Source: Actomonas aquatica
Lineage (GTDB): Bacteria; Verrucomicrobiota; Verrucomicrobiia; Opitutales; Opitutaceae
Assembly (NCBI RefSeq): GCF_019679435.2
Contig: NZ_CP139781.1
Location: 62,001 to 126,000 of the forward strand
Direction of reading: 5' to 3'
DNA: 64,000 nucleotides
Under the pieces are notes generated by a model that was not told where the DNA came from, did no database searches, and saw only the letters and a program-made list of their open reading frames with translations. Position numbers and translations under genes: made by a program. Below are positions 18,332 through 30,115 of this stretch, in pieces. Numbering within the stretch: the first letter of the stretch is position 1; every line of letters begins with the position of its first letter.

Positions 18332-19828
18332 TTACTTGCGCCAGATGTCGCCTTCGTCGGCGTGGAACCAGCGCGAGGTGGTGACCTTGGGTTGGGTGTA
18401 GAAGAGGATTCCACCGCGGCCCTGCATGGGCTGATCGCCAAAGAAGGAGTCGTTCCAACCGCTGAAGGGGAACATCGCCATGGGGGCGGGCACACCGACA
18501 TTTATGCCGATCATGCCGGCGTTGACCCGGTGTTGAAACTCACGGGCTGCTCCGCCGGAGCGGGTGAAGATGACCGCTCCGTTGCCGTAGGCGGAGGCGT
18601 TGGCCTGGGCGATGGCCGCGTCGAGATCGTGCATGTGCATGACATTGAGCACGGGGCCAAACACCTCTTCCCGGGCCAGTCGCATGTCGTTCTGAACATC
18701 GTCGACGATGGTCGGGCCGAGGTAGAAGCCGTTGGGGGCGTCCGGCACGCGCACGGCGCGTCCGTCGGCGATGACGCGGCCGCCGCTTTGCTCGCCGCTG
18801 TCGACCAGGTCGCGCACGCGATCGAGATGCGCCTGGGTGATCAGGGCGCCCATGCCGGGTTGCGTCTCGACGTCGGTGCGGCCGACGGAGAGCTCGCGGG
18901 CGGCGCGCTGGAGTTCGGGCATGAGTTTTTGACCGCGATCTCCGACGGTGAGCACACTGGAACCAGCCATGCAGCGCTCGCCGGCACAGCCGAAGGCGGC
19001 GTTCATCACCGCCTCGACGGTTTTGGGAATATCGGCATCGGGCATGACCACCACGTAGTTTTTGGCGCCACCGTTGGCCTGCACCCGTTTGCCGTGAGCG
19101 GTGGCGGTGGTGTATATGTGACGGGCGATCGGCGTGGAGCCAACGAACGACACGGCGCGCACGTCCGGATGCTTCAGCAGAGCGTCGACAGAGTCGGCGC
19201 CGCCATGCACGAGGTTGAACACGCCGTGGGGCAGACCGGCTTCGATCAACAGCTCGGTGAGGCGGACGGCGGTGAGGGGCACCCGTTCGCTGGGCTTGAG
19301 CACAAAGGTGTTTCCGCACACCAACGCGAGCGGGAACATCCACAGCGGAATCATGGCCGGGAAGTTAAACGGCGTGATGCCGACGCAGACGCCGAGCGGG
19401 TGACGGGCCAGTTCACCATCGATGCCGCGGGCGATATTTGGCAATACCTCGCCCATGAGCAGCGACGGCGCGCCGCAGGCGAGTTCGACGACCTCGTAAC
19501 CGCGGTAGAGGTCGCCGCGCGCCTCGGCGTAGGTCTTGCCGTGTTCGCGGCAGATGAGTCGGGCGATTTCGTCGAAGTGTTGTTCCAGCAACGCGCGGTA
19601 ACGGAACATGACGCGGGCGCGCTCCACCACGGGAGTCGCCTCCCAGGCCGGAAACGCGGCGCGGGCGGCGGCGACGGCGGCGTCGACTTCGCTGGACCCG
19701 CCGGTGGGAACCTCGGCAATGACTTCGCCTAGCGAAGGATTAAAAACCGGGGTGCGCGGCAGGTCGGAGTAGTTGATCCATTCGCCGTCGATGTAGGCGG
19801 GAACAAGGGGAGGGGATTGATCTGACAT
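18332..19828 (-). CDS. iolA: Malonate-/methylmalonate-semialdehyde dehydrogenase (CoA-acylating)
   Basis: The 498-residue aldehyde dehydrogenase has FNFP (N155, oxyanion), NGGAKNYVVVMPDADIPKT and the catalytic GCAGERCMAGS with nucleophile C286, all typical of MmsA/IolA. In inositol catabolism it turns malonate semialdehyde plus CoA and NAD+ into acetyl-CoA and CO2. It is the last gene of the minus-strand unit iolB-iolD-iolE-tal-iolA and is followed by a terminator. Its presence fits production of malonate semialdehyde by the gene directly upstream. Confidence 0.9.
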   Translation of the reverse strand: MSDQSPPLVPAYIDGEWINYSDLPRTPVFNPSLGEVIAEVPTGGSSEVDAAVAAARAAFPAWEATPVVERARVMFRYRALLEQHFDEIARLICREHGKTYAEARGDLYRGYEVVELACGAPSLLMGEVLPNIARGIDGELARHPLGVCVGITPFNFPAMIPLWMFPLALVCGNTFVLKPSERVPLTAVRLTELLIEAGLPHGVFNLVHGGADSVDALLKHPDVRAVSFVGSTPIARHIYTTATAHGKRVQANGGAKNYVVVMPDADIPKTVEAVMNAAFGCAGERCMAGSSVLTVGDRGQKLMPELQRAARELSVGRTDVETQPGMGALITQAHLDRVRDLVDSGEQSGGRVIADGRAVRVPDAPNGFYLGPTIVDDVQNDMRLAREEVFGPVLNVMHMHDLDAAIAQANASAYGNGAVIFTRSGGAAREFQHRVNAGMIGINVGVPAPMAMFPFSGWNDSFFGDQPMQGRGGILFYTQPKVTTSRWFHADEGDIWRK

Positions 19829-19847
19829 AAAGGGCGGTGAACGGAGT

Positions 19848-20906
19848 TCAGTTGAGCATGGCTTCGCGCACGATGCAGAGCAGGTCGGCGTAGCCGCCGA
19901 GAAACTGTTTGAGGGTGTGCTGAGTGGCGCCGAAGCGGAGGAATTCGGGCGGTGTCATGCCGGCGGGATCGTAGGCCTTCACGAAATCGGGGAAGGTCTG
20001 TTCGAGCTCGTGCACGATCGCGGGGTCCACCGGATCATCGAGGGTGAGGGTGGGCGTGGTGCCGCTGTCGTTAAACGTCCGCCACCAGTTGTAGGGAATG
20101 GTCTGGAGCACGTCGGGGCCGATGATTTGTGACCAGTGGCCCTCGTGCCGATAGGCGGCCGCCAGCAGCGTGCCCGGGCGGCCAGCCGAGCGGAAGAGCT
20201 CGTGGGCGCGCTTAAACACCGCGATGCCGGCCCAGTTGATGGCTTGCTCCGCGGCGGAAATTCCTTCGGCCGCGGCGACGCGCTTGAGGTGATCGTCCAC
20301 CCGGCCGATCATGAGAGTGATGTAGGGGCGTAGTCTATCGGTGGATACGCCGGCGGAACGGGCGCGCTGCAGGCCACGTTCGATGGCGTCGGACACAGCG
20401 ATGGCTTGAGCGACCGAAAAGCTCACGGTCGCGTTGATGCGAATGCCGGCGGCGGTCAGATCTTCCATCGCGACGATGCCCGCCACCGTCGTGGGCAGCT
20501 TGATGGCGATATTGGGGGCGAGCGCGGCGAGCTGGCGGGCCTGCGCCACCATGCGCTGTGGGTCCGGGTAGAACTGCGGGTTCACCTGCATGGAGAGGAA
20601 CCCCTTCTCGCCGTTGGACGCTTCGAAAACGGGCTGCAGGTGGGTGGCGGATTCGATGCCGAGGGCGTGGATCAGTTTCCAGGCGATTTCGTCCTCGGTC
20701 GCGTGCGGATGTTCGCGAATGAGGCGTTCGAGATGAGGGCGGCAGAGCTCCGGATGGTCCTGCGCGGCTTTGGAGACGATGACGGGGTTGGAGGTGCCGC
20801 CGACCGCGCCGAGCGCGACGGCTTCGGCGAGTTCGGAGGCGACTCCGGAATCGTTCCACCAATCCGCGCCGAGCGCGGTCATTTGCGACATGGGTGAGTC
20901 AATCAT
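19848..20906 (-). CDS. Transaldolase-family protein in the position of IolC/IolJ
   Basis: The 352-residue class I aldolase-fold protein carries GGTSNPVIVSKA (N40), the Schiff-base lysine in AIKLPTTVAGI (K136), INATVSFS and IGRVDD (R202, at the place of a transaldolase phosphate-binding Arg). In FLSMQVNP, Q107 stands where transaldolases have their Glu acid/base and where fructose-6-phosphate aldolase has Gln. It lies 19 bp before iolA and after iolE, and no IolC kinase or IolJ aldolase gene is in the window. I infer that it cleaves 2-deoxy-5-keto-D-gluconate, or transfers its dihydroxyacetone unit, to give malonate semialdehyde. A plain pentose-phosphate transaldolase is the alternative. ATG 20891 is another possible start. 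Confidence 0.82.
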   Translation of the reverse strand: MIDSPMSQMTALGADWWNDSGVASELAEAVALGAVGGTSNPVIVSKAAQDHPELCRPHLERLIREHPHATEDEIAWKLIHALGIESATHLQPVFEASNGEKGFLSMQVNPQFYPDPQRMVAQARQLAALAPNIAIKLPTTVAGIVAMEDLTAAGIRINATVSFSVAQAIAVSDAIERGLQRARSAGVSTDRLRPYITLMIGRVDDHLKRVAAAEGISAAEQAINWAGIAVFKRAHELFRSAGRPGTLLAAAYRHEGHWSQIIGPDVLQTIPYNWWRTFNDSGTTPTLTLDDPVDPAIVHELEQTFPDFVKAYDPAGMTPPEFLRFGATQHTLKQFLGGYADLLCIVREAMLN

Positions 20907-20932
20907 GGTAAATATGGGGGGGATGGGGAGGT

Positions 20933-21856
20933 TCAGGCGCCGGTGTGTTGGCGCACGTAGTCGCGGGCCGCGCGGGCTTTGGGCAGCGCGGGCACCTGCA
21001 CGGGATCTTCCTCGGCCTCAACGACGAGCCAGCCGCGGTAACCGGCTGCGGCGAGGACGTTGAAGAGCGAGGGAAAGGAGATGCCCCCGGCCGGATCGCC
21101 GGGGATGGTGAACACGCCGCTCTTTACGGCGCGGTGGAAGGACCAGGCTTCGGTGCGGGCGCGGTCGACGATCGCGGGACGCACGCTCTTGAGGTGCACG
21201 TGGGCGATACGGGAGGCGTAGTGTCGGGCAACCGCGATGGGGTCGAGGCCGGCGAAGGCGAGATGGCCGGGGTCCAGCACCAACTGCAGCGATGGCACCG
21301 CCTGCATAAGGCGATCGAGGCTGGCCTCGTCCTGAATCACGGTGCCCATGTGATGATGGTAGGCGAGGCGCAGCGGCGTCGCGGCGGCGATGTCGACCAG
21401 CCGCGTGAGTCCGGCGATGAGTTGGCTCCATTGATCCGGCGTCAGGCGTGGCTGCGGGTTGTCGCCACTTCCCAAGGCTGTATCAGGATCGCCATGACAG
21501 CAGAACGAGCATTCGGCCACGATGGCCACCTGGGCTCCGGCGGCTTGCAAGCGTTGAAGGTGCTGATGAAAGCGGGCCTCTTCGGTCGCGAGATCCCGCG
21601 TGGCGAGGAAGGTGCTGTGCCAACCACCGATCAGCTGCAGCTCGTGCGCGGCCAGGGTGGTGCGCAGGTCAACCCCGGAGGCGGGGTAGGCGTGACCCAG
21701 TTCGGAGCCGGCGTAGCCAGCGGCGCGCATGTCGTGCAGGATGGTTTCCAGCGGCACGTCTCCGGCGAGATCCGGGAAGTCGTCATTGCTCCAGATGATG
21801 GGGTTGGCGCCGACCGAGCAGGCGGCGAGGGAAGAGGAAGCGAGGGGGGCAGACAT
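20933..21856 (-). CDS. iolE: myo-Inosose-2 dehydratase
   Basis: The 307-residue TIM-barrel protein of the AP-endonuclease-2/xylose-isomerase group has VGANPIIWSNDDFPDLAGD at the N-terminus, AYHHHMGTVIQ in the middle (metal-binding His), DPGHLAF, and HLKSVRPAIV. This combination is characteristic of IolE, which dehydrates scyllo-inosose to 3D-(3,5/4)-trihydroxycyclohexane-1,2-dione. It is 33 bp after iolD and 26 bp before the transaldolase gene, in one minus-strand unit. Confidence 0.9.
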   Translation of the reverse strand: MSAPLASSSLAACSVGANPIIWSNDDFPDLAGDVPLETILHDMRAAGYAGSELGHAYPASGVDLRTTLAAHELQLIGGWHSTFLATRDLATEEARFHQHLQRLQAAGAQVAIVAECSFCCHGDPDTALGSGDNPQPRLTPDQWSQLIAGLTRLVDIAAATPLRLAYHHHMGTVIQDEASLDRLMQAVPSLQLVLDPGHLAFAGLDPIAVARHYASRIAHVHLKSVRPAIVDRARTEAWSFHRAVKSGVFTIPGDPAGGISFPSLFNVLAAAGYRGWLVVEAEEDPVQVPALPKARAARDYVRQHTGA

Positions 21857-21889
21857 GGCGGTCGGGGGCGGATTCGCAGGGGGGGCAGG

Positions 21890-23764
21890 TCAGTAGTGGA
21901 ACCGTTGTTTCTGCCGGGCTTGTTCGTAGTCCGTGCGGGCTTTCTTGACCGACGGCAGGGCGGAGACTTCGGCCGGCGGCACGTCCCACCAGGAGAACGA
22001 CTGCATGACCGAAGCGGTGGAAACGGGGATGTAGATGAAGCAGGTTTCCGTGGCCTCGCGGGCAGCGGCGAGAGCGGCCCGGATCGAGTCGCGGTCGGTG
22101 GCAGTGAAGGTGCGGGCACCGAGGCTGGCGGCGTTGGCGGCAAAATCGATGGGGATCACCCCGCCGTCGAGGCGGCGGGAGTTGGCGCTGCGTTCACGAA
22201 ACTCGTTGCCGAAACTGCGCCCGCCACAGCCGCGTTGCAGGTTGTGGATGCAGCCGAAGCCGTGGTTGTCCACGAGTACGACGGTGATCTTTTTGTTTTC
22301 CTGCACTGCGGTGACGATCTCCTGGCTGAGCATCAGGTAACTGCCGTCGCCGAGGAAGGCGTAGACCTCGCGTTCCGGCGCGGCGATTTTCACGCCGAGG
22401 GCGCCGGCGATTTCGTAGCCCATGCAGGAGTAGCCGTATTCCGAGTGGTAGTCGGTGGCGGAGTGGCCGCGCCAGAGTTTGTGGATGTCGCCGGGGATGC
22501 CGCCGGAGGCGTGGACAACGGTGCTGTTGCCATCGCACGCCTCGTTGAGGAGGCGCACAACTTCGCTTTGGTAGATGGCTCCGTCGGGGCCGTGGGCACC
22601 GGGAGCGGTCATTGCCTGCCAGGGTTTTTCCCAGGCGCGGCGGGCGCGCGCGATGGCGCGCTGGTGGGTGGTGGGCACCTGCCAGCCGCGCAGGCGGCGA
22701 CGCCAGGCGGCGAGCGTGGCGCGCGCATCACCCACGAGTGGCAGCGCGCCGTGTTTGGCGGCATCCATGGCGTTGGTGTTGATGGCGACAAAACGAACCT
22801 GGGGATGCTGGAACTGGGTTTTGGACGCGGTGGTGAAATCGGAGAGCCGCGTGCCGATCGCGATGACAACATCGGCGCGGGCGGCGATTTGGTTGGCGGC
22901 GGCTGTGCCGGTGACGCCGACGGCGCCGAGGCCGAGGGCGTGGGACTCGAGCAGCGCGCCCTTGCCTGCTTGGGTGACGGCAACGGGGATGCCAGTGGCG
23001 GTGGCAAAACGCGCGAGCTCGGCGGTGGCGTCGGCGTAGTGCACGCCACCGCCGGCGACGATGAGCGGAGCGCGGGCGCTACGCAGCAAGTCAGTGGTGG
23101 CGGCGAGGGCTTCGGCCACGGGCACGGTGCGATACTGGTCGTAGACGCGTTTGGCAAAGAAGTGGGCGGGGAAGTCGTAGGCTTCGGCCTGCACATCTTC
23201 GGGCAAGGCGATGGTCACAGCGCCGGTTTCCGCCGGGTCGGCGAGGACGCGCATGGCCTCGGGCAGGGCGGTGAGCAGTTGCTCGGGGCGATTGATTCGG
23301 TCCCAGTAGCGCGAGACGGGACGGAAACAGTCGTTGACGCTCGTTTCCTGGCTGCACGGGTGTTCGAGCTGTTGCAGAACCGGGGCGGGGCGACGGTTGG
23401 CAAAGATGTCGCCGGGCAGAAGCAGCACTGGCAGGCGGTTGACGGTGGCGGTGGCGGCGCCGGTCACCATGTTGGTCGCGCCGGGACCGACGGAGGAGGT
23501 GCAGGCGAGGGTGCCGAGACGTTGTTTGGTTTTGGCGAAGGCCGTCGCGGTGTGCACCATGGCCTGCTCGTTGCGCGATTGGTAGTAGGGCAGATCGGGC
23601 GACGCGTGTTCCTCGATGGCCTGGCCGAGCCCGGTCACGTTGCCGTGGCCGAAGATGCCGCAGATGCCTTGGATGAGGCGGTGTTCCTGGCCGTCGCGCC
23701 GGATGTATTGTGCTTCCAAAAAGCGGACGAGGGCGGCGGCAGTGGTGAGACGGATGGTCTTCAT
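21890..23764 (-). CDS. iolD: 3D-(3,5/4)-trihydroxycyclohexane-1,2-dione hydrolase
   Basis: The 624-residue thiamine-diphosphate enzyme has HGNVTGLGQAIEE and YYQSRNEQAMVHTATAFAK in the N-terminal Pyr domain. The PP domain has FLGDGSYLMLSQEI and the GFGCIHNLQRGCGG segment (NHGFGCIHNLQ is typical of IolD). It opens the cyclohexane ring to 5-deoxy-glucuronate. Its ATG overlaps the iolB stop by 4 bp, so the pair is translationally coupled. The length matches the family. Confidence 0.92.
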   Translation of the reverse strand: MKTIRLTTAAALVRFLEAQYIRRDGQEHRLIQGICGIFGHGNVTGLGQAIEEHASPDLPYYQSRNEQAMVHTATAFAKTKQRLGTLACTSSVGPGATNMVTGAATATVNRLPVLLLPGDIFANRRPAPVLQQLEHPCSQETSVNDCFRPVSRYWDRINRPEQLLTALPEAMRVLADPAETGAVTIALPEDVQAEAYDFPAHFFAKRVYDQYRTVPVAEALAATTDLLRSARAPLIVAGGGVHYADATAELARFATATGIPVAVTQAGKGALLESHALGLGAVGVTGTAAANQIAARADVVIAIGTRLSDFTTASKTQFQHPQVRFVAINTNAMDAAKHGALPLVGDARATLAAWRRRLRGWQVPTTHQRAIARARRAWEKPWQAMTAPGAHGPDGAIYQSEVVRLLNEACDGNSTVVHASGGIPGDIHKLWRGHSATDYHSEYGYSCMGYEIAGALGVKIAAPEREVYAFLGDGSYLMLSQEIVTAVQENKKITVVLVDNHGFGCIHNLQRGCGGRSFGNEFRERSANSRRLDGGVIPIDFAANAASLGARTFTATDRDSIRAALAAAREATETCFIYIPVSTASVMQSFSWWDVPPAEVSALPSVKKARTDYEQARQKQRFHY

Positions 23765-24624
23765 CGGGAAGCGGGGAGGGTCGGTTGCCAGCCCTGTTGC
23801 TGTGCATCGAGCAACCAGGTGTGAGCGGGGGTGAATTTAAATCCCTTGTAGGGACGGCGCGGGAGGTGGTGCACCACCCAGAGATAATACATGCCGTAGC
23901 CGGGCGCGGAGACCTGGGCGTGGTCGAGGCCACCGGGAATGCCAACCGTGTCGCCGTGACGGACCTTGAGGACGTCGTCGCCGAGTTCGGCGTGGCCGTA
24001 GCCGCGCGGGTCGGTGAAGCGGTAGTGGTAGATTTCCGGTTGGGCGTGGTGGTGGGGCGGATAACTCGACCAGCGGCCGGGGTAGTTCACCACCTCGCCG
24101 ACCACGAGGTCGGAGTCCGGACGGGTGTTGTAGTCAAAGATCGTGCGCACACAGCGGCGGCAGGCTCCCTGCACCAAGCCGGCTCCACGATCCTCGCTGT
24201 CGACTGCGGAGGCGGGCGTAAAGCGGGTAGGCAGCGGAGCGGATTTGGAGGAACGAATGACGGCGAGCTCCGCGCCGCCGGTGCCGGCCTTGAGCTCCAG
24301 CTCCGTGCCGGCGCCGCAATGGTAGGTGGAGGGATCCTCGTCGAACAGGGACGCGCGACTGGCGAGGTGTTCCTGCGCGGCATCGCGGAAGCGGATCTCG
24401 CCGTGCAGGAGCACAAAAACGGATTCGACGGTGCAGGTCTCGCTGTGGCGTTGACCGCGGCGCAGGCGCAGAATGCCGAAGTCCATGTTGGTCTCGGCGG
24501 GGTCGCGGCGTTTGCTTCCCGGGGTGACGATGGCGGTATGTCCCAGGGGGAAGCGTTGGGCGGTGGAGGATGCCGGAGCCGGGACGCGACAGGAGGAGGA
24601 GTTAACTGTTCGATTTTTTGGCAT
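23761..24624 (-). CDS. iolB: 5-Deoxy-glucuronate isomerase
   Basis: The 287-residue double-cupin protein carries the metal-binding stretch SYPPHHHAQPEIYHYRF and IPGGLDHAQVSAPGYGMYYLWVV, both diagnostic of IolB. It converts 5-deoxy-glucuronate to 2-deoxy-5-keto-D-gluconate. ATG 24624 was chosen; a TTG two codons upstream is the alternative. It is the first gene of the minus-strand operon, divergent from the SDR gene. A putative LacI operator covers codons 4-8, so a bound repressor would block early elongation or the promoter just upstream. Confidence 0.9.
   Translation of the reverse strand: MPKNRTVNSSSCRVPAPASSTAQRFPLGHTAIVTPGSKRRDPAETNMDFGILRLRRGQRHSETCTVESVFVLLHGEIRFRDAAQEHLASRASLFDEDPSTYHCGAGTELELKAGTGGAELAVIRSSKSAPLPTRFTPASAVDSEDRGAGLVQGACRRCVRTIFDYNTRPDSDLVVGEVVNYPGRWSSYPPHHHAQPEIYHYRFTDPRGYGHAELGDDVLKVRHGDTVGIPGGLDHAQVSAPGYGMYYLWVVHHLPRRPYKGFKFTPAHTWLLDAQQQGWQPTLPASR
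24602..24613 (+). promoter_or_regulatory. Putative LacI operator, site D (one mismatch)
   Basis: TTAACTGTTCGA matches the locus motif TTAACnGTTAGA in all but one position. It lies between the divergent iolB and SDR genes, 59 bp before the SDR ATG and just inside the iolB coding start. This is the weakest of the four sites. Confidence 0.5.
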
Positions 24625-24671
24625 ATTCAAATCCTTGCGAAGTGCGCGGCGGCGAGGGAGGAGGCTGAGGC

Positions 24672-25445
24672 ATGGAAAAAAGCCCCTCTTTGTTTTCCCT
24701 GCAGGGCCGTCGTGCGTTGGTGACCGGTTCGGGTCGCGGTCTGGGTTTCAGTTTGGCGCGCGGTTTGGCGCGGGCGGGCGCCGCGGTGGTGCTGAATGAT
24801 GTGGCGGAGGACCGTTTGGCCGCTGGCGTGGAGCTCCTGCGCGGGGAAGGTGCCGCGGTCGAAGGTTGCCGGTTTGACGTGACCGATCCGCTCGCCGTGC
24901 AGCAGGCCATCGCGCAGCTGACCGCCGACGGCGGCGCCATTGATATCCTGGTGAACAACGCCGGCATTCATCGTTACGCGGCGCTCGACACCATGTCGTT
25001 GGCGCAATGGAACGATGTGCTGTCGGTCAATCTGACCGGTGCGTTCCTCGTCGCGCAGGCCGTGATCGGTGGCATGAAGCGGCGCGGCGGCGGCAAGATC
25101 ATCAATATCTGCTCGCTCATGAGTGAAGGCAGCCGGCCGACGACCGGTAACTACACCGCAGCCAAGGGCGGGTTGAAGCTGCTCACCAAGTCCATGGCGG
25201 TGGAGTGGGGGGCACATGGCGTGCAGGCCAACGGGATCGGTCCCGGTTACATCCTGAGTGACATGACACGTCATCTCGCCGCGGATCCGCAATTTGACGG
25301 TTGGGTGCGAAGCCGGACGCCGGCTGGTCGATGGGGCACGCCGGATGACCTGGTCGGTGCGGCGGTATTCCTGGCCTCGCCTGCCGCGGATTTCGTGAAT
25401 GGTCATGTGATCTATGTCGATGGCGGTTGGCTGGCCGCGTTGTAG
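24672..25445 (+). CDS. SDR-family oxidoreductase, gluconate 5-dehydrogenase-like
   Basis: The 257-residue classical short-chain dehydrogenase has the cofactor loop TGSGRGLG, NNAG, catalytic NYTAAKGG (Tyr/Lys) preceded by a Ser region (ICSLMSEGS), and GRWGTPDDLVGAAVFLASP near the end. It is closest by eye to gluconate 5-dehydrogenase/IdnO-type enzymes, which reduce 5-ketogluconate. Within an inositol locus it could act on an inositol isomer ketone or on 2-deoxy-5-ketogluconate; neither is shown. It is divergent from iolB and shares operator site D with it. Confidence 0.8.
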   Translation: MEKSPSLFSLQGRRALVTGSGRGLGFSLARGLARAGAAVVLNDVAEDRLAAGVELLRGEGAAVEGCRFDVTDPLAVQQAIAQLTADGGAIDILVNNAGIHRYAALDTMSLAQWNDVLSVNLTGAFLVAQAVIGGMKRRGGGKIINICSLMSEGSRPTTGNYTAAKGGLKLLTKSMAVEWGAHGVQANGIGPGYILSDMTRHLAADPQFDGWVRSRTPAGRWGTPDDLVGAAVFLASPAADFVNGHVIYVDGGWLAAL

Positions 25446-25449
25446 GTGA

Positions 25450-26460
25450 TCAGTCCTGATCCAGCGTGATGCGGCGGTCTTCGTGCAGAGAGCGGGTGGC
25501 GGCCGATGCGATACGTTGGGCCGCGATGCCGTCCTCGCAGGTGATGGCCGGGGCATCGCCGGCCCGCAGGCGGTCGACAAAATCCTGCAGCTGAATCAGG
25601 TAAGCCTGCGCAAAACGTTCGAGGAAGCCGGGCACGGTGTCGTGGCCGATGTGACCGGCGGACATGATTTGCAACGGGGTCTCACGGTCGTAACCAACCC
25701 GCAGGGTGCCATCGCGGCCCACGATCTCGGTGTCGATCGCGTAGCCGTAGACACCGTTGCGGCTGAGGTTCACCTGGCCGAGCATGCCGGAGGCAAACAC
25801 CAGGCTGGTGAAAGCGTTGTCGACGTCTCCCACTTCGGCCACGGCAGGATCGGCGAGGGCGCCACCGGTGCTGTGCACGCTTTGCACGTCCCCCATAAAC
25901 CAGCGTGCCAGGTCGAAGTCGTGAATGCCCATGTCGATGAACAAGCCGCCGCTGTTTTCGGGGCGCAGGTAGTCGAGAGGTGGTGGATTCCGATCGCGGG
26001 AACTGGATTTAAACACGAGCGGCGCGCCGATCCGGCCGGTGGCGATAGCGCGCTGGGCGGCAGCGTAGCCGGGGTCGAAACGGCGCATGAAAGCCAGGTG
26101 GAAAAAGATGCCGTGCTGGTTCACTGCCGCGCGCATGGCTTCACCCTCCGCGAGATCCAGCGAGAGCGGCTTTTCACAAAAGATCGCTTTGCCGGCAGCG
26201 GCGGCGGCGAGCACCACCGGATGATGGTAGCGGGTGGGGGTAACGACGACCACAGCGTCGACCTCGGGGTGGGTGACCAGAGACTCAAAATCGGGACAAG
26301 CCCGGGCGCCGGTTTCGGCGGCGACCGCAGCGGTCACGTCGGCCTGCACGTCGGTGACGGCCACCAGGCGGGCGTGATGGATTCGGGAAGCAAAATGGCC
26401 GGCGTAGATGCGGCCGAGGCGGCCGAGCCCGACGACTCCGATGTTGATGGGGGCATTCAT
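25450..26460 (-). CDS. iolG: Inositol 2-dehydrogenase (Gfo/Idh/MocA family)
   Basis: The 336-residue protein has the NAD-binding GVVGLGRLGRIYA, the catalytic-lysine motif CEKPLSL, FMRRFDPGYAAAQ and DMGIHDFDLARWFMG. This last Asp...His...Asp stretch is typical of myo-inositol 2-dehydrogenases. It oxidises myo-inositol to scyllo-inosose, the first step of the pathway. It is transcribed alone, 4 bp from the convergent SDR stop. A copy of the shared operator (26552-26563) lies 92 bp upstream of its ATG. Confidence 0.88.
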   Translation of the reverse strand: MNAPINIGVVGLGRLGRIYAGHFASRIHHARLVAVTDVQADVTAAVAAETGARACPDFESLVTHPEVDAVVVVTPTRYHHPVVLAAAAAGKAIFCEKPLSLDLAEGEAMRAAVNQHGIFFHLAFMRRFDPGYAAAQRAIATGRIGAPLVFKSSSRDRNPPPLDYLRPENSGGLFIDMGIHDFDLARWFMGDVQSVHSTGGALADPAVAEVGDVDNAFTSLVFASGMLGQVNLSRNGVYGYAIDTEIVGRDGTLRVGYDRETPLQIMSAGHIGHDTVPGFLERFAQAYLIQLQDFVDRLRAGDAPAITCEDGIAAQRIASAATRSLHEDRRITLDQD

Positions 26461-26618: not shown

Positions 26619-27809
26619 TCAGACCTCGGGGTGAGAGACGGTGGATTGCGTGGGCAGAGTGGCCCAGGGAGCTCCGACTTGATGCAGGCCGACCCCCTGA
26701 TGGGCAGCGGTCTGCAATGCCTCACCCAAACCCGGGACGTAGGTGCGGGGGCCATTTTCCTCCTCCTTTTGCACGGTGAAGGCCGCACTGATGGGGGTGG
26801 TGGGGATGCTGGCGTGAAGGGCCCAAACGCATTCCACGTGGGTCATGGCAAGATGTGGACCGCAGACGAACGCGTCCTCGCCGCGCCAGTGGGCAATGAT
26901 GTCGCGGAGCATGACTTCGCGGGTGACTGATTCGGGGTTGGCCTCCTGGTGCCATTCCCCGTCGGCGTTGCTTAGTTTGGCGAAGCGATCCTGTTGCCAC
27001 TCCGCCACGCCCTCGCTGCCTTCCAGGCGCAAGGAAGGACGAATCAGGTCCTTGGCGCTATGGGTCCCGTAGAAATCCATGCGGGGACGGTTGGGATGGG
27101 TGAAACTGAAGATGGCGGTGTCATACATCTCGATGTCTTGGGCGCGATAGAGCTCCCCGCCGAGTTGCCAGCCCTCGAGCGATTCGCAGTCGCAGAGGTG
27201 CAGCATGAGCATGACGAAGTGGGACATGGCGTTGTTGACCGGCGAATCCAGCACCCATTTGTCCTGAGATTTGCAGCGCCCGGCCCAGGTGTTGCGTTGG
27301 TAGTAGGCGTGGGGACGCGGCCACGCGCCGATGATGGTGGCGCGCTGCAGGGTGCCGATGGCACCGCCCTGCAGGTGTTTGCGCAGGGCCCGGACTTCGG
27401 GGGCGTGAAGGTATTGAAAGCCGATGGTGAGCTTGCGATCGCAGTCCAGCGCGGTTTGGGCGAGGCGCCGGGCCTCGGCCAGGGAACCGGTGAGCGGTTT
27501 CTCCAAGAGCACGTGCATGCCGGCGCGCAGGAGGGCTTCGGCCATCGGCGCGTGCAGATGGATAGGGGTAGGCACCACCGCGAGATCGATCGCCAGCTGG
27601 GGTTGCGCGGCCAACAACTGCTCGATCGAAGCGAAACGCTTGCATCCGAGGTCAGCCAACTGGCCCTGGGTTTCGGGGTTGAAGTCCTGAGGCAAAACCA
27701 CGGCCGCAGCGAGCGTGAGCTCCCCCCGGCGATGAAAGTCCATCAGGTGGGCGAGGTGCACGCGGCCGTAGCCGCCGATGCCAACAATGGCGACGCGGGG
27801 GCCTTTCAT
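26619..27809 (-). CDS. Second Gfo/Idh/MocA-family oxidoreductase
   Basis: The 396-residue protein starts MKGPRVAIVGIGGYGRVHLAHL, with a standard Rossmann loop, and has the EKPLTGSL lysine motif and DSPVNNAMSHFVMLMLHL in place of the usual GG...D/H stretch. The C-terminal domain is longer than in IolG. ATG 27809 was chosen because the upstream frame is proline-rich noise. Its role is unassigned: it might act on scyllo- or another inositol isomer, or on a methylated inositol. It is divergent from the symporter gene, with operator site A between them. Confidence 0.78.
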   Translation of the reverse strand: MKGPRVAIVGIGGYGRVHLAHLMDFHRRGELTLAAAVVLPQDFNPETQGQLADLGCKRFASIEQLLAAQPQLAIDLAVVPTPIHLHAPMAEALLRAGMHVLLEKPLTGSLAEARRLAQTALDCDRKLTIGFQYLHAPEVRALRKHLQGGAIGTLQRATIIGAWPRPHAYYQRNTWAGRCKSQDKWVLDSPVNNAMSHFVMLMLHLCDCESLEGWQLGGELYRAQDIEMYDTAIFSFTHPNRPRMDFYGTHSAKDLIRPSLRLEGSEGVAEWQQDRFAKLSNADGEWHQEANPESVTREVMLRDIIAHWRGEDAFVCGPHLAMTHVECVWALHASIPTTPISAAFTVQKEEENGPRTYVPGLGEALQTAAHQGVGLHQVGAPWATLPTQSTVSHPEV

Positions 27810-27959
27810 CGGAGTTGGGTAAGGAGGGGGTGGGCACGGGTATCGCGGGTGACTGCGGATACGTTTGGAAGGGCCCGAAGGGAGAAAAGTGGGGGTTTCA
27901 GCTGGGGCATTGTCGAGATCGCAATCAACCCCGCAGCGAGCCACAACCCACTTGGTAAA

Positions 27960-27971: not shown

Positions 27972-28075
27972 TCCCGCCGGCGGTTGCGAGTGCGCAGGTC
28001 CTGGATATCTCGATGGTTTCCCCGGCCGTCCGGCCTCGCGTCATCCCTCGCGTAACCCCACCCCAAGCTTTCTTT

Positions 28076-30115
28076 ATGAACGGAATCCACTTCCTCGATA
28101 TCCTCGTTTTCATCGCCTACATGGTGGTGGTCATTTACCTCGGTCGGCGCAGCAGCCACGGCAACACGAGCAATCAGGAAGGGTATTTTTTGGCGGGGCG
28201 GAAGCTGGGCAAAGTGTATCAGTTTTTCCTCAACTTCGGCAACGCGACCGACGCCAATGGCGCGGTGAGTGCGGCGAGCATGGTGTATCAGCAAGGTGTG
28301 TCGGGCGTGTGGCTGGGGTTTCAGCTCATTTTTCTCAATCCGTATTATTGGTTCATGAACACGTGGTTCCGCCGCGTGCGATTGGTGACCACGGCGGACC
28401 TCTTTGAAGACCGACTGGGGAGCCGGAAACTGGCTTCGTTCTACGCCGTGTTTCAGAGCCTCGCGGCGATGTTTGTGGTGATCGGTTTCGGCAATCTGGT
28501 GACCTACAAAATCTGTGCCGCGCTGGTGACCAAGCCGGAGGTGCAGTGGACGGTGGAGGAGCGTTCGGCGGTGGAGGGGCATGCCGCGTTGCATCAGTTG
28601 GAAATGAGGTTGGCCGAAGGGCCGCTCGGTGAAACGGAGGCGGTGGAATTGGCGATGTTGCGGGAGAGGGATGCCCGCGGGGAACTGCGCAGTTTCGTGA
28701 CCGCGTTGCAGCCATTTAGTTTTTATCTTTGTTACACCTTGGTTGTAGGCATCTACGTCGTGGCGGGAGGCATGGCGGCGACCGCGATGAACGAGGTCCT
28801 GCAAAGTATCATCATCGTGGCGTTTTCAGTGATTCTGGTGCCGGCGGGATTGGTGGCGATTGGTGGATTCGATGCGCTGCGGGACAGGGTGCCGGCCAAT
28901 ATGTTTGAGTTGGTGGGGAGTAATGCAGACCTGCAGCAGATTACAGGCCTGTCGCTGTTTGCGCTCTTCCTCGTCGCGATCATTCAAATCAACGGCATCA
29001 TCGGAAACATGGGGATCAGCGGTTCGGCCAAGAACGAATACGCCGCGCGCCTGGGGGCAGTGACGGGAACCTACGCCAAGCGTCTGATGTTCATCCTGTG
29101 GGCCTTTGCGGGGCTGATCGCCGTGGCGATGTTCTCGGGCGCAGATACTCTGGCGGATCCGGATCTGGCTTGGGGCACGATGTCTCGCCAATTGCTTGGC
29201 CCGGGTATGTTGGGGCTGATGATCACCGGTGTGTTGGCGGCAAACATGTCGACGGTTGCCGCGCAGACCGTGGCGGTGTCGGCCTTGATTGTCCGCAATG
29301 TTTATCATCCGTTCTTCCCCAATACGACGCAGCAGGGAGCGGTGCGATTGGGGCGGATCATGGTCGTGCTGGCATTGGCCGTGGGCGTGGTGGCGGCGAT
29401 GATGATGGACAGTGTTTTCTCCGCGCTGCTGTTGGTGCAGACGGTGAGTGTGCCGTTTGGCGCCGTGGTCATGTTGATGTTCTTTTGGCGCCGACTCACC
29501 TGCGTGGGCGTGTGGGCGGGGCTCTTGCTCGCCATCGGGCTCAATGTCGTCGGCCCACTCTTCCTTTCGCAGCTTGATTCCATTCGTTCACACCCCGCGT
29601 TGACGGTGCGGGCGGAGGATTCGATGGGGCGTCCTCAGCCGATTTATTTTGAGTCGGTGGAGCGCCCAGTCGGCCGGGAGCTCGATGGGGATCTGGAGGG
29701 CAAGGGGCGCTTCCATCTGGAATTGGTCATCGTGAATGCGATCGGCTTCGATGTGGAAAAGATGAGTTCCAGCGGACGCTTTGCGGCGCGCTTTTTCTTC
29801 AATGCGATATCGCCGTTTATCTTCCTGATCGCAGTGAGTCTCCTGACCCGTCCGCCGGAGAAGTCCCGGGTGGATCAGTTTTTCGGTCGGATGAAGACAC
29901 CGGTCGGCGCGACGGCGCAGGAAGAGGACGAGGCCTTGGCCGCGACGCAACGGGATCCCCATCGTTTTGATGACCAGAAACTGTTCCCGAAATCCTCGTG
30001 GGAATTCACCAAGTGGAATCGCGTCGATACCATTGGTTTTGTGGTCTGCTGCGCCGTCTCCGGAGCCATCATCTGGTTGTTCCAGATCCTGCTCGATCTG
30101 GCGGCGGGAGCCTGA
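28076..30115 (+). CDS. Sodium:solute symporter (SSS family), probable inositol transporter
   Basis: The 679-residue polytopic protein begins FLDILVFIAYMVVVIYLGRR and has SSS-family features: GYFLAGRKLGKVYQFFLNFGNATDANGAVS near residue 40, then ITGVLAANMSTVAAQTVAVSALIV around the sodium site. A charged, helix-prone insertion of about 55 residues (about 153-208) sits between two membrane segments, and a hydrophilic loop of about 75 residues lies near 500-575; both are larger than in simple SSS carriers. The operator upstream and the surrounding iol genes suggest inositol or a derivative as substrate. Confidence 0.82.
   Translation: MNGIHFLDILVFIAYMVVVIYLGRRSSHGNTSNQEGYFLAGRKLGKVYQFFLNFGNATDANGAVSAASMVYQQGVSGVWLGFQLIFLNPYYWFMNTWFRRVRLVTTADLFEDRLGSRKLASFYAVFQSLAAMFVVIGFGNLVTYKICAALVTKPEVQWTVEERSAVEGHAALHQLEMRLAEGPLGETEAVELAMLRERDARGELRSFVTALQPFSFYLCYTLVVGIYVVAGGMAATAMNEVLQSIIIVAFSVILVPAGLVAIGGFDALRDRVPANMFELVGSNADLQQITGLSLFALFLVAIIQINGIIGNMGISGSAKNEYAARLGAVTGTYAKRLMFILWAFAGLIAVAMFSGADTLADPDLAWGTMSRQLLGPGMLGLMITGVLAANMSTVAAQTVAVSALIVRNVYHPFFPNTTQQGAVRLGRIMVVLALAVGVVAAMMMDSVFSALLLVQTVSVPFGAVVMLMFFWRRLTCVGVWAGLLLAIGLNVVGPLFLSQLDSIRSHPALTVRAEDSMGRPQPIYFESVERPVGRELDGDLEGKGRFHLELVIVNAIGFDVEKMSSSGRFAARFFFNAISPFIFLIAVSLLTRPPEKSRVDQFFGRMKTPVGATAQEEDEALAATQRDPHRFDDQKLFPKSSWEFTKWNRVDTIGFVVCCAVSGAIIWLFQILLDLAAGA

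Follow-up and report, generated by a model that had tools for sequence, protein, structure and literature searches.

The window, a 64,000-nucleotide stretch of the single 6.1 Mb contig that makes up the Actomonas aquatica genome, harbours on its minus strand five genes in the order iolB-iolD-iolE-tal-iolA (18332-24630; Table 1), the operon already described in a sequence-only reading of the same DNA, and each gene has a matching profile. There is a 4-nt overlap between iolB and iolD, and the other gaps are 33 nt (iolD-iolE), 26 nt (iolE-tal) and 19 nt (tal-iolA), which places tal directly ahead of iolA on the same strand, as that reading had pointed out. By the definition of Weber 2022 (at least three of iolB, iolC, iolD and iolE per determinant, at most 10 kb apart; PMC9430895), iolB, iolD and iolE within 20933-24630 constitute a myo-inositol catabolic gene cluster. 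Against the NCBIfam profile TIGR04378, iolB scores 98.2 bits, below the cut-off of 205, and translation may in fact begin downstream of the TTG given as its start. A homologue of the sodium:solute symporter (59% identical) is located close to the Tal-iol operon of another genome (G140, locus L122), and the symporter is a candidate inositol transporter.

Table 1. Inositol-related features of the window.
Feature	Position	Strand	Product	Profile match
iolA	18332-19828	-	CoA-acylating (methyl)malonate-semialdehyde dehydrogenase (MMSDH)	TIGR01722, 642 bits (cut-off 448.5)
tal	19848-20906	-	352-aa Gln-type transaldolase-family protein	PF00923 (TAL_FSA), 142.6 bits
iolE	20933-21856	-	inosose dehydratase	TIGR04379, 313.1 bits (cut-off 290)
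iolD	21890-23764	-	trihydroxycyclohexanedione hydrolase	TIGR04377, 897 bits (cut-off 715)
iolB	23761-24630	-	5-deoxy-glucuronate isomerase, diverged	PF04962 (KduI/IolB), 179.5 bits
iolG	25450-26460	-	inositol 2-dehydrogenase, upstream of iolB	TIGR04380, 339.6 bits (slightly below cut-off 355)
symporter	28013-30115	+	sodium:solute symporter	PF00474, 78.3 bits

With the canonical inositol pathway (IolC plus IolJ, or IolC-DUF2090), the steps of IolG, IolE, IolD, IolB and IolA are held in common, and the proposed C3-C4 cleavage yielding malonate semialdehyde is identical; however, where the canonical pathway has a kinase and a 6-phosphate aldolase, the Actomonas operon has a transaldolase-family protein instead. 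The two enzymes were sought genome-wide, as the sequence-only reading had advised, with TIGR04382, PF09863 and PF01116 as the kinase and aldolase families covered. The highest-scoring match to IolC (5-dehydro-2-deoxygluconokinase) has 101 bits (cut-off 300), and DUF2090 has no match. The sole class II aldolase is FBA-like by score, is not linked to the iol operon and is 32.5% identical (240 aligned columns) to a class II aldolase from a Paracoccus iol cluster. Thus, within these families, neither the canonical kinase nor a dedicated aldolase (DUF2090 or IolJ-type class II) for the 6-phosphate of 2-deoxy-5-keto-D-gluconate (DKG) is hidden elsewhere in the genome. A canonical TalAB transaldolase is encoded separately (TIGR00874, 481.5 bits; cut-off 396.2).

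Among 387 Verrucomicrobiota genomes, IolD was found in seven and a close Tal (at least 45% identity) in eight, with both in seven, and in all seven IolD-bearing genomes Tal lies inside the iol operon. Co-occurrence at this level is not due to chance (Fisher p = 3e-14, relatedness ignored). By profile search, none of the eight Tal genomes carries IolC above cut-off or DUF2090, while each has exactly one class II aldolase. Further Tal loci were collected from genome contigs via the peptide patterns [LT][GA][AT]D[WF]WND and LAPNIAIK, a search that more diverged Tals escape; 71 loci were fetched, and leaving out nine fragments or weak matches (L130 and L132-L139) gave 62 close full-length Tals. 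Of these, all from named genomes, 47 are accompanied by at least two of iolB, iolD and iolE (at least 120 bits, within fetched flanks of at most 8 kb on each side), and the linkage is present in several phyla. For the other 15, seven genomes have IolD on a different stretch and eight have no IolD that was found, thus inositol need not be the role of every Tal. Only one of the 62 loci (L124) harbours an IolC-like gene scoring 100 bits or more. Conservation of tal beside iol genes in genomes without iolC, which the sequence-only reading had named as a check on its proposal, is borne out in the Verrucomicrobiota. Among 20 distant Tal genomes, two (SAR324 and Anaerolineae) do have IolC above cut-off and a third has a match of 198 bits; in the SAR324 genome DUF2090 is matched as well, at 30.8 bits (cut-off 27).

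Tal and the canonical pair were compared directly in the Myxococcota, the phylum of Hyalangium, where 195 genomes contain 16 IolD loci. On the fetched stretches, six of these carry Tal, six carry IolC plus DUF2090, none carries both and four carry neither (Fisher p 0.034, relatedness ignored); genomes G387 and G388 are those of Tal loci L093 and L094. In the four loci with neither, no kinase or aldolase was present among the 10 neighbours scanned by Pfam, where two stretches (L184 and L185) reach a contig end and one (L186) ends 1.4 kb from one. On an IolD tree built by a quick method, Tal-type and IolC-type loci are separated by two changes over 59 labelled rows, a count that leaves aside the 12 of 71 rows labelled ‘other', one of which (L109) actually carries Tal; with ‘other' as a third state, 12 changes are required. 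A Streptomyces locus (L143) is the sole IolC-type row on the Tal side, and L198, with a broken IolD, was dropped by the coverage limit.

The AF2 model of Tal (pLDDT 94.8) has a TIM-barrel fold that, with the PF00923 match and the Schiff-base Lys136, places the protein in the transaldolase superfamily. Its closest solved fold is the transaldolase of Neisseria gonorrhoeae (7bbw_A and 3clm; Z 40.2, rmsd 1.9 over 320 and 321 residues, respectively), which is 28% identical (3clm) but has Glu where the Tal clade has Gln. No NCBIfam transaldolase or FSA cut-off is reached (best 124.2 against 367). Trp17, Asn18, Asp19 and Lys136 fall within the search patterns, hence their conservation is partly built in; this applies to Lys136, found in 62 of 62 Tals, and Asp19 aligns with FSA Asp6. 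Outside both patterns are Gln107, at the position of TalB Glu96; Ala251, at that of Ser226 near the phosphate site; Met199, equivalent to TalB Phe178 and FSA Tyr131; Arg202; and Arg253. All are invariant in the 62 Tals, except that Arg202 is found in 61 with one unread. Eighteen rows served for comparison, namely TalB and 17 more distant TAL-family proteins of the fetched loci, not each verified as a transaldolase. At the position of Gln107, 17 of them have Glu and one has Gln; at that of Met199, 17 have Phe and one has Met; at that of Ala251, all 18 have Ser. Arg253 is no general mark of the family, since 14 of the 18 have Ser there.

These residues set Tal apart from transaldolase proper, FSA and the sulfo-TALs. 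The catalytic Glu of transaldolase proper (EC 2.2.1.2) is Gln in 62 of 62 Tals, and of the FSA water site Gln59-Thr109-Tyr131, Gln107 and Thr160 are present, with Met199 in place of Tyr. E. coli FSA, an aldolase that frees dihydroxyacetone, resembles Tal in having Gln at the Glu96 position, yet differs in Tyr131 (Met199 in Tal), Ser166 (Ala251) and length (220 versus 352 aa). BmSF-TAL, the sulfofructose transaldolase of the sulfo-TAL pathway, is likewise a Schiff-base enzyme of the superfamily, taking a C3 unit off a sugar acid with no dedicated kinase; however, it is FSA-sized (218 residues in 8bc2), is 19% identical to the Tal model (Z 23.0, 201 residues, rmsd 2.0) and retains the catalytic Glu61 (PMC11659671), where the Tal clade has Gln107, and membership of Tal in the sulfo-TALs was rejected on this ground. 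Interconversion of FSA and transaldolase by exchange of the water-organising residues is reported (Stellmacher 2015, as cited in PMC13259622). The published residues D23, Q111, K140, N162 and T201 of Faecalicatena sp. DSM22707 F2, the second transaldolase candidate of a sulfoquinovose cluster that also contains a candidate dihydroxyacetone kinase (PMC11659671), equal D19, Q107, K136, N158 and T197 of Tal shifted by four, a spacing that suggests F2 may be kin to Tal.

In some bacteria, from several distantly related groups, a single transaldolase-like enzyme appears to have taken over from the usual kinase and aldolase in inositol breakdown. That Tal would cleave unphosphorylated DKG in place of IolC and its aldolase, as had been proposed for this operon, is well supported at the level of sequence: the known families were not found genome-wide, Tal occurs in iol operons of several phyla, and Tal and IolC never share any of the 16 Myxococcota IolD loci on the fetched stretches. 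For the whole explanation, an IolC-free myo-inositol pathway in which Tal is the DKG-cleaving enzyme and aldolase its likelier mode, the estimated probability is about 0.7. DKG would be left unphosphorylated, with no IolC step; Lys136 would form a Schiff base with its C5 ketone, and the C3-C4 bond would be broken to malonate semialdehyde and a three-carbon dihydroxyacetone unit, the former passing to acetyl-CoA by IolA. The carboxylate of DKG would probably be held by Arg202 and Arg253, at the phosphate site of relatives. By reasoning, such a cleavage agrees with class I aldolase chemistry, as the sequence-only reading had also argued. Its description of the route as kinase-free stands in so far as IolC was not found, yet by our accounting no ATP would be saved, since either dihydroxyacetone is phosphorylated later or fructose 6-phosphate is, by phosphofructokinase.

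Two modes, previously given equal weight, can be considered for the dihydroxyacetone unit. A true aldolase freeing dihydroxyacetone, to be phosphorylated by glycerol kinase directly or via reduction to glycerol, is somewhat the more probable, because Gln107 for Glu96 and Ala251 for Ser226 hold in all 62 Tals. In the other mode, which is somewhat less probable, glyceraldehyde 3-phosphate would accept the unit and become fructose 6-phosphate while malonate semialdehyde is released, in analogy to the transaldolase pathway of sulfoquinovose; against it, besides the two exchanges at the catalytic Glu and beside the phosphate site, the sulfofructose transaldolase retains Glu61 (PMC11659671). Met199 fits poorly with the aldolase mode, as it stands in place of the catalytic FSA Tyr131 at the TalB Phe178 position, and the anion-site residues Arg202 and Arg253 are kept; both points favour transfer. 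So does the search for a kinase: Dak1 was found in none of the seven Verrucomicrobiota genomes with Tal and IolD and was rejected as partner, and no gene like E. coli DhaK or GlpK was detected in the 71 fetched loci (tblastn, E 1e-5). Glycerol kinase is above cut-off in six of the seven, the exception being G158, and equally in 12 of 12 tested relatives without Tal, thus it is not a specific partner of Tal; moreover, E. coli GlpK in vivo seems to use glycerol, not dihydroxyacetone (PMC6643234). The parallel drawn earlier to the sulfoquinovose transaldolase would hold for kinase-free Schiff-base removal of a C3 unit, but not for Gln107 versus Glu61; Gln107 and Ala251 lean to aldolase.

Other roles for Tal were weighed against DKG cleavage. 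An unrecognised PfkB kinase might form DKG 6-phosphate for the single class II aldolase, Tal acting elsewhere; each of the eight Verrucomicrobiota Tal genomes has that aldolase and three to eight PfkB-type matches to the IolC model (best about 100-118 bits). This is improbable, as none comes near the 300-bit cut-off, an IolC-like gene accompanies so few Tals, and the Tal-iol linkage would be left without explanation. Also against it, the C6 phosphate of DKG would fall on the dihydroxyacetone side, a part that FSA/TAL enzymes handle in unphosphorylated form. Slightly less probable still is a related keto acid, for example of another cyclitol, as the substrate. Wider relatives of Tal do occur in different cassettes, together with MMSDH and an MDR dehydrogenase and at times with a second Tal, and IolD was not detected in eight of the 62 Tal genomes; however, the window and two Lentisphaerota operons contain the other myo-inositol steps and, inside these operons, no known alternative consumer of DKG. 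Least probable is an ordinary pentose-phosphate transaldolase merely co-transcribed with iol genes. The shared fold, Lys136 and the alignment of Asp19 with FSA Asp6 would suit it, but this identity was rejected because TalAB is encoded separately and Gln replaces the catalytic Glu; in addition, Tal stays below all NCBIfam transaldolase cut-offs, is linked to iol genes across several phyla and never accompanies IolC at the 16 Myxococcota IolD loci.

Inositol is plentiful in soils as phytate. No description of a transaldolase-type inositol pathway was found in a literature search whose coverage excludes most subscription journals and all bioRxiv preprints; within that partial coverage, this agrees with the sequence-only reading, which knew of none. 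Genome surveys treat IolC as a core gene (PMC9430895), and in Weber 2022, where 1,024 genomes had only three core genes in a cluster, the fourth lay elsewhere in 810 of them; cases of a missing fourth gene were ascribed to incomplete assemblies, errors or frameshifts (PMC9430895). Of the 26 inositol users in Price 2022, 16 have IolC-DUF2090 and 2 have IolJ (PMC9007349), which leaves at least eight without a known aldolase. A Tal-type branch could account for some of these surveyed cases, would correct ‘transaldolase' annotations and would offer, in the Tal clade, a natural aldolase/transaldolase switch for study. With about even odds, judged from sequence comparison, Tal would be a class I aldolase acting on unphosphorylated DKG, a new enzyme activity that defines a kinase-free inositol branch recurring in iol operons across eight named phyla or classes, and would belong to a wider Gln-type clade cleaving unphosphorylated keto-sugar acids, perhaps including Faecalicatena F2.

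The window's genome probably uses a conserved variant of inositol breakdown that dispenses with the kinase IolC. The minus-strand operon iolB-iolD-iolE-tal-iolA described in the sequence-only reading was borne out by gene coordinates and by NCBIfam and Pfam profile matches. In the profile search iolD, iolE and iolA reached curated NCBIfam cut-offs and iolB was above its Pfam cut-off only; iolB and iolD share 4 nt, and the gaps downstream are 33, 26 and 19 nt. The 352-residue Tal matched Pfam TAL_FSA at 142.6 bits, with no NCBIfam transaldolase or fructose-6-phosphate aldolase (FSA) model at cut-off.

Features of the inositol region (window positions)
Feature	Position	Strand	Remark
iolB-iolD-iolE-tal-iolA	18332-24630	-	
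tal	19848-20906	-	
SDR gene	24672-25445	+	divergent; gluconate-5-dehydrogenase-like, 299.7 bits (cut-off 369)
iolG	25450-26460		slightly under NCBIfam cut-off
second GFO/IDH/MocA oxidoreductase	26619-27944	-	upstream of iolG; 48% identity to an oxidoreductase adjoining the L108 Tal operon

The gap left in the operon by IolC and the aldolase IolJ was not filled elsewhere in the genome (a single contig of 6,109,182 bases) in searches for IolC, DUF2090 and class II aldolases: the best IolC match was 101 bits (cut-off 300), DUF2090 had no match and the one class II aldolase scored as FBA-like. The genome also has a canonical TalAB transaldolase gene at another site (481.5 bits; cut-off 396.2), so the pentose phosphate pathway does not have to rely on the operon Tal. 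In the accessible text of Weber 2022 (PMC9430895) the core inositol genes are iolB, C, D and E, and in that of Price 2022 (PMC9007349) the aldolase route was IolJ in 2 and IolC-DUF2090 in 16 of 26 inositol users. Our literature search found no description of a Tal-type pathway.

Among 387 genomes of the phylum, IolD exceeded its cut-off in seven; Tal of at least 45% identity occurred in these plus G286, where it adjoins an MMSDH fragment and an MDR dehydrogenase. In all seven, tal lies inside the operon. The five from the window's family share the order iolE-tal-iolA; in G150 and G269 it is iolG-tal-iolB-iolD-iolE-iolG-iolA. None of the eight Tal genomes had IolC or DUF2090 over cut-off, and each had a single class II aldolase match.

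A two-peptide-pattern scan of 84,980 species (one genome each) returned 71 loci, 62 of which were retained (full-length Tal, at least 42% identity). At a 120-bit limit, 47 of the 62 fetched loci carried at least two of iolB/D/E, two carried one and 13 none; for the 15 with fewer than two, IolD was elsewhere in the genome in seven and not found in eight. Loci pairing Tal with two or more of iolB/D/E came from Verrucomicrobiota, Lentisphaerota, Myxococcota, Neomarinimicrobiota, Latescibacterota, Bacteriovoracaceae, Gammaproteobacteria and Anaerolineae. An IolC-like kinase (at least 100 bits) was present at one of the 62 loci (L124). Among 20 distant Tal genomes hand-picked from the loci, two had IolC over cut-off and one DUF2090 (30.8 bits). 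In a SAR324 genome the IolC belongs to an iolD cluster distinct from the Tal locus, and the IolD encoded there falls among IolC-type IolDs in the tree. The Anaerolineae genome G398 (L118 and L183) combines two arrangements: an iol cluster of the Tal type, IolD included, and an IolB-like plus IolC pair on another contig. In three Vicinamibacteria loci (L101, L100, L113) Tal is away from iol genes; a type I phosphodiesterase adjoins it in L101, and two of these three genomes have IolD at another site. Wider Gln-type relatives occupy other cassettes: MMSDH-Tal-MDR dehydrogenase-Tal (L049), MDR-Tal-Tal (L046), SDR-Tal-MDR (L050) and MMSDH-Tal-MDR (L045).

In the phylum of Hyalangium, 16 of 195 genomes had an IolD match (14 over cut-off). 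Around these, Tal without IolC was found in six, IolC plus DUF2090 without Tal in six, both in none and neither in four (Fisher p = 0.034, with no correction for relatedness); the 62 Tals above already include those of two of these six Tal genomes. A quickly built IolD tree needed two changes between Tal and IolC labels over 59 labelled rows, so Tal-type and IolC-type operons are largely separate lineages. Comparative genomics strongly supports Tal displacing the usual IolC route; the proposed substrate of Tal is 2-deoxy-5-keto-D-gluconate.

The Tal model, of high confidence (pLDDT 94.8), was nearest in fold to Neisseria gonorrhoeae transaldolase (Z 40.2, rmsd 1.9). Residues were equated by sequence alignment to E. 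coli TalB and FSA. FSA Tyr131 is the main proton shuttle; Tal has Met199 there, a poor match to FSA.

Active-site residues of Tal
Tal	TalB	FSA	Tals with residue	Comparison rows
Lys136	Lys132		62/62	
Gln107	Glu96	Gln59	62/62	Glu 17/18
Met199	Phe178	Tyr131	62/62	Phe 17/18
Arg202	Arg181	Arg134	61/62 (one unread)	
Ala251	Ser226	Ser166	62/62	Ser 18/18
Arg253	Arg228	Lys168	62/62	Ser 14/18

According to the available part of PMC13259622, FSA and transaldolase are interconverted by swapping residues that organize the catalytic water, Ser166 and Arg134 mark a putative phosphate-recognition region (within 8 Å of the phosphate, contact not implied) and weaker phosphate binding broadens use of non-phosphorylated aldehydes. 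On that basis Gln107 and Ala251 would fit an aldolase acting on carboxylate rather than phosphate. The Faecalicatena F2 protein has the catalytic residues of Tal, each shifted by four positions; in the portion of the paper available (PMC11659671) an F6P aldolase is suggested for it, and the cluster also encodes a dihydroxyacetone kinase candidate.

Weighed together, freeing of dihydroxyacetone (aldolase mode) is slightly favoured, at about 60:40, over transfer of the three-carbon unit to glyceraldehyde 3-phosphate (transaldolase mode). Any dihydroxyacetone freed would have to be consumed. Dak1 was absent from all seven Tal- and IolD-bearing genomes and, among 20 tested, present in G286 only. 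Glycerol kinase was over cut-off in six of the seven, and also in G286 and every one of the 12 relatives lacking Tal; it is therefore available, yet no specific Tal partner. In the accessible text of PMC6643234, GlpK accepts dihydroxyacetone with an in vitro Km of 0.5 mM and is able to phosphorylate this compound in Haloferax volcanii; E. coli data indicate use via glycerol. By our own accounting both modes cost one ATP per three-carbon unit, equal to the IolC route, so energy cannot discriminate between them.

Homologues of the divergent SDR (at least 55% identity) occur close to the operon at 18 of the 71 scanned loci; a possible target of this enzyme is the 5-keto group of the pathway intermediate.
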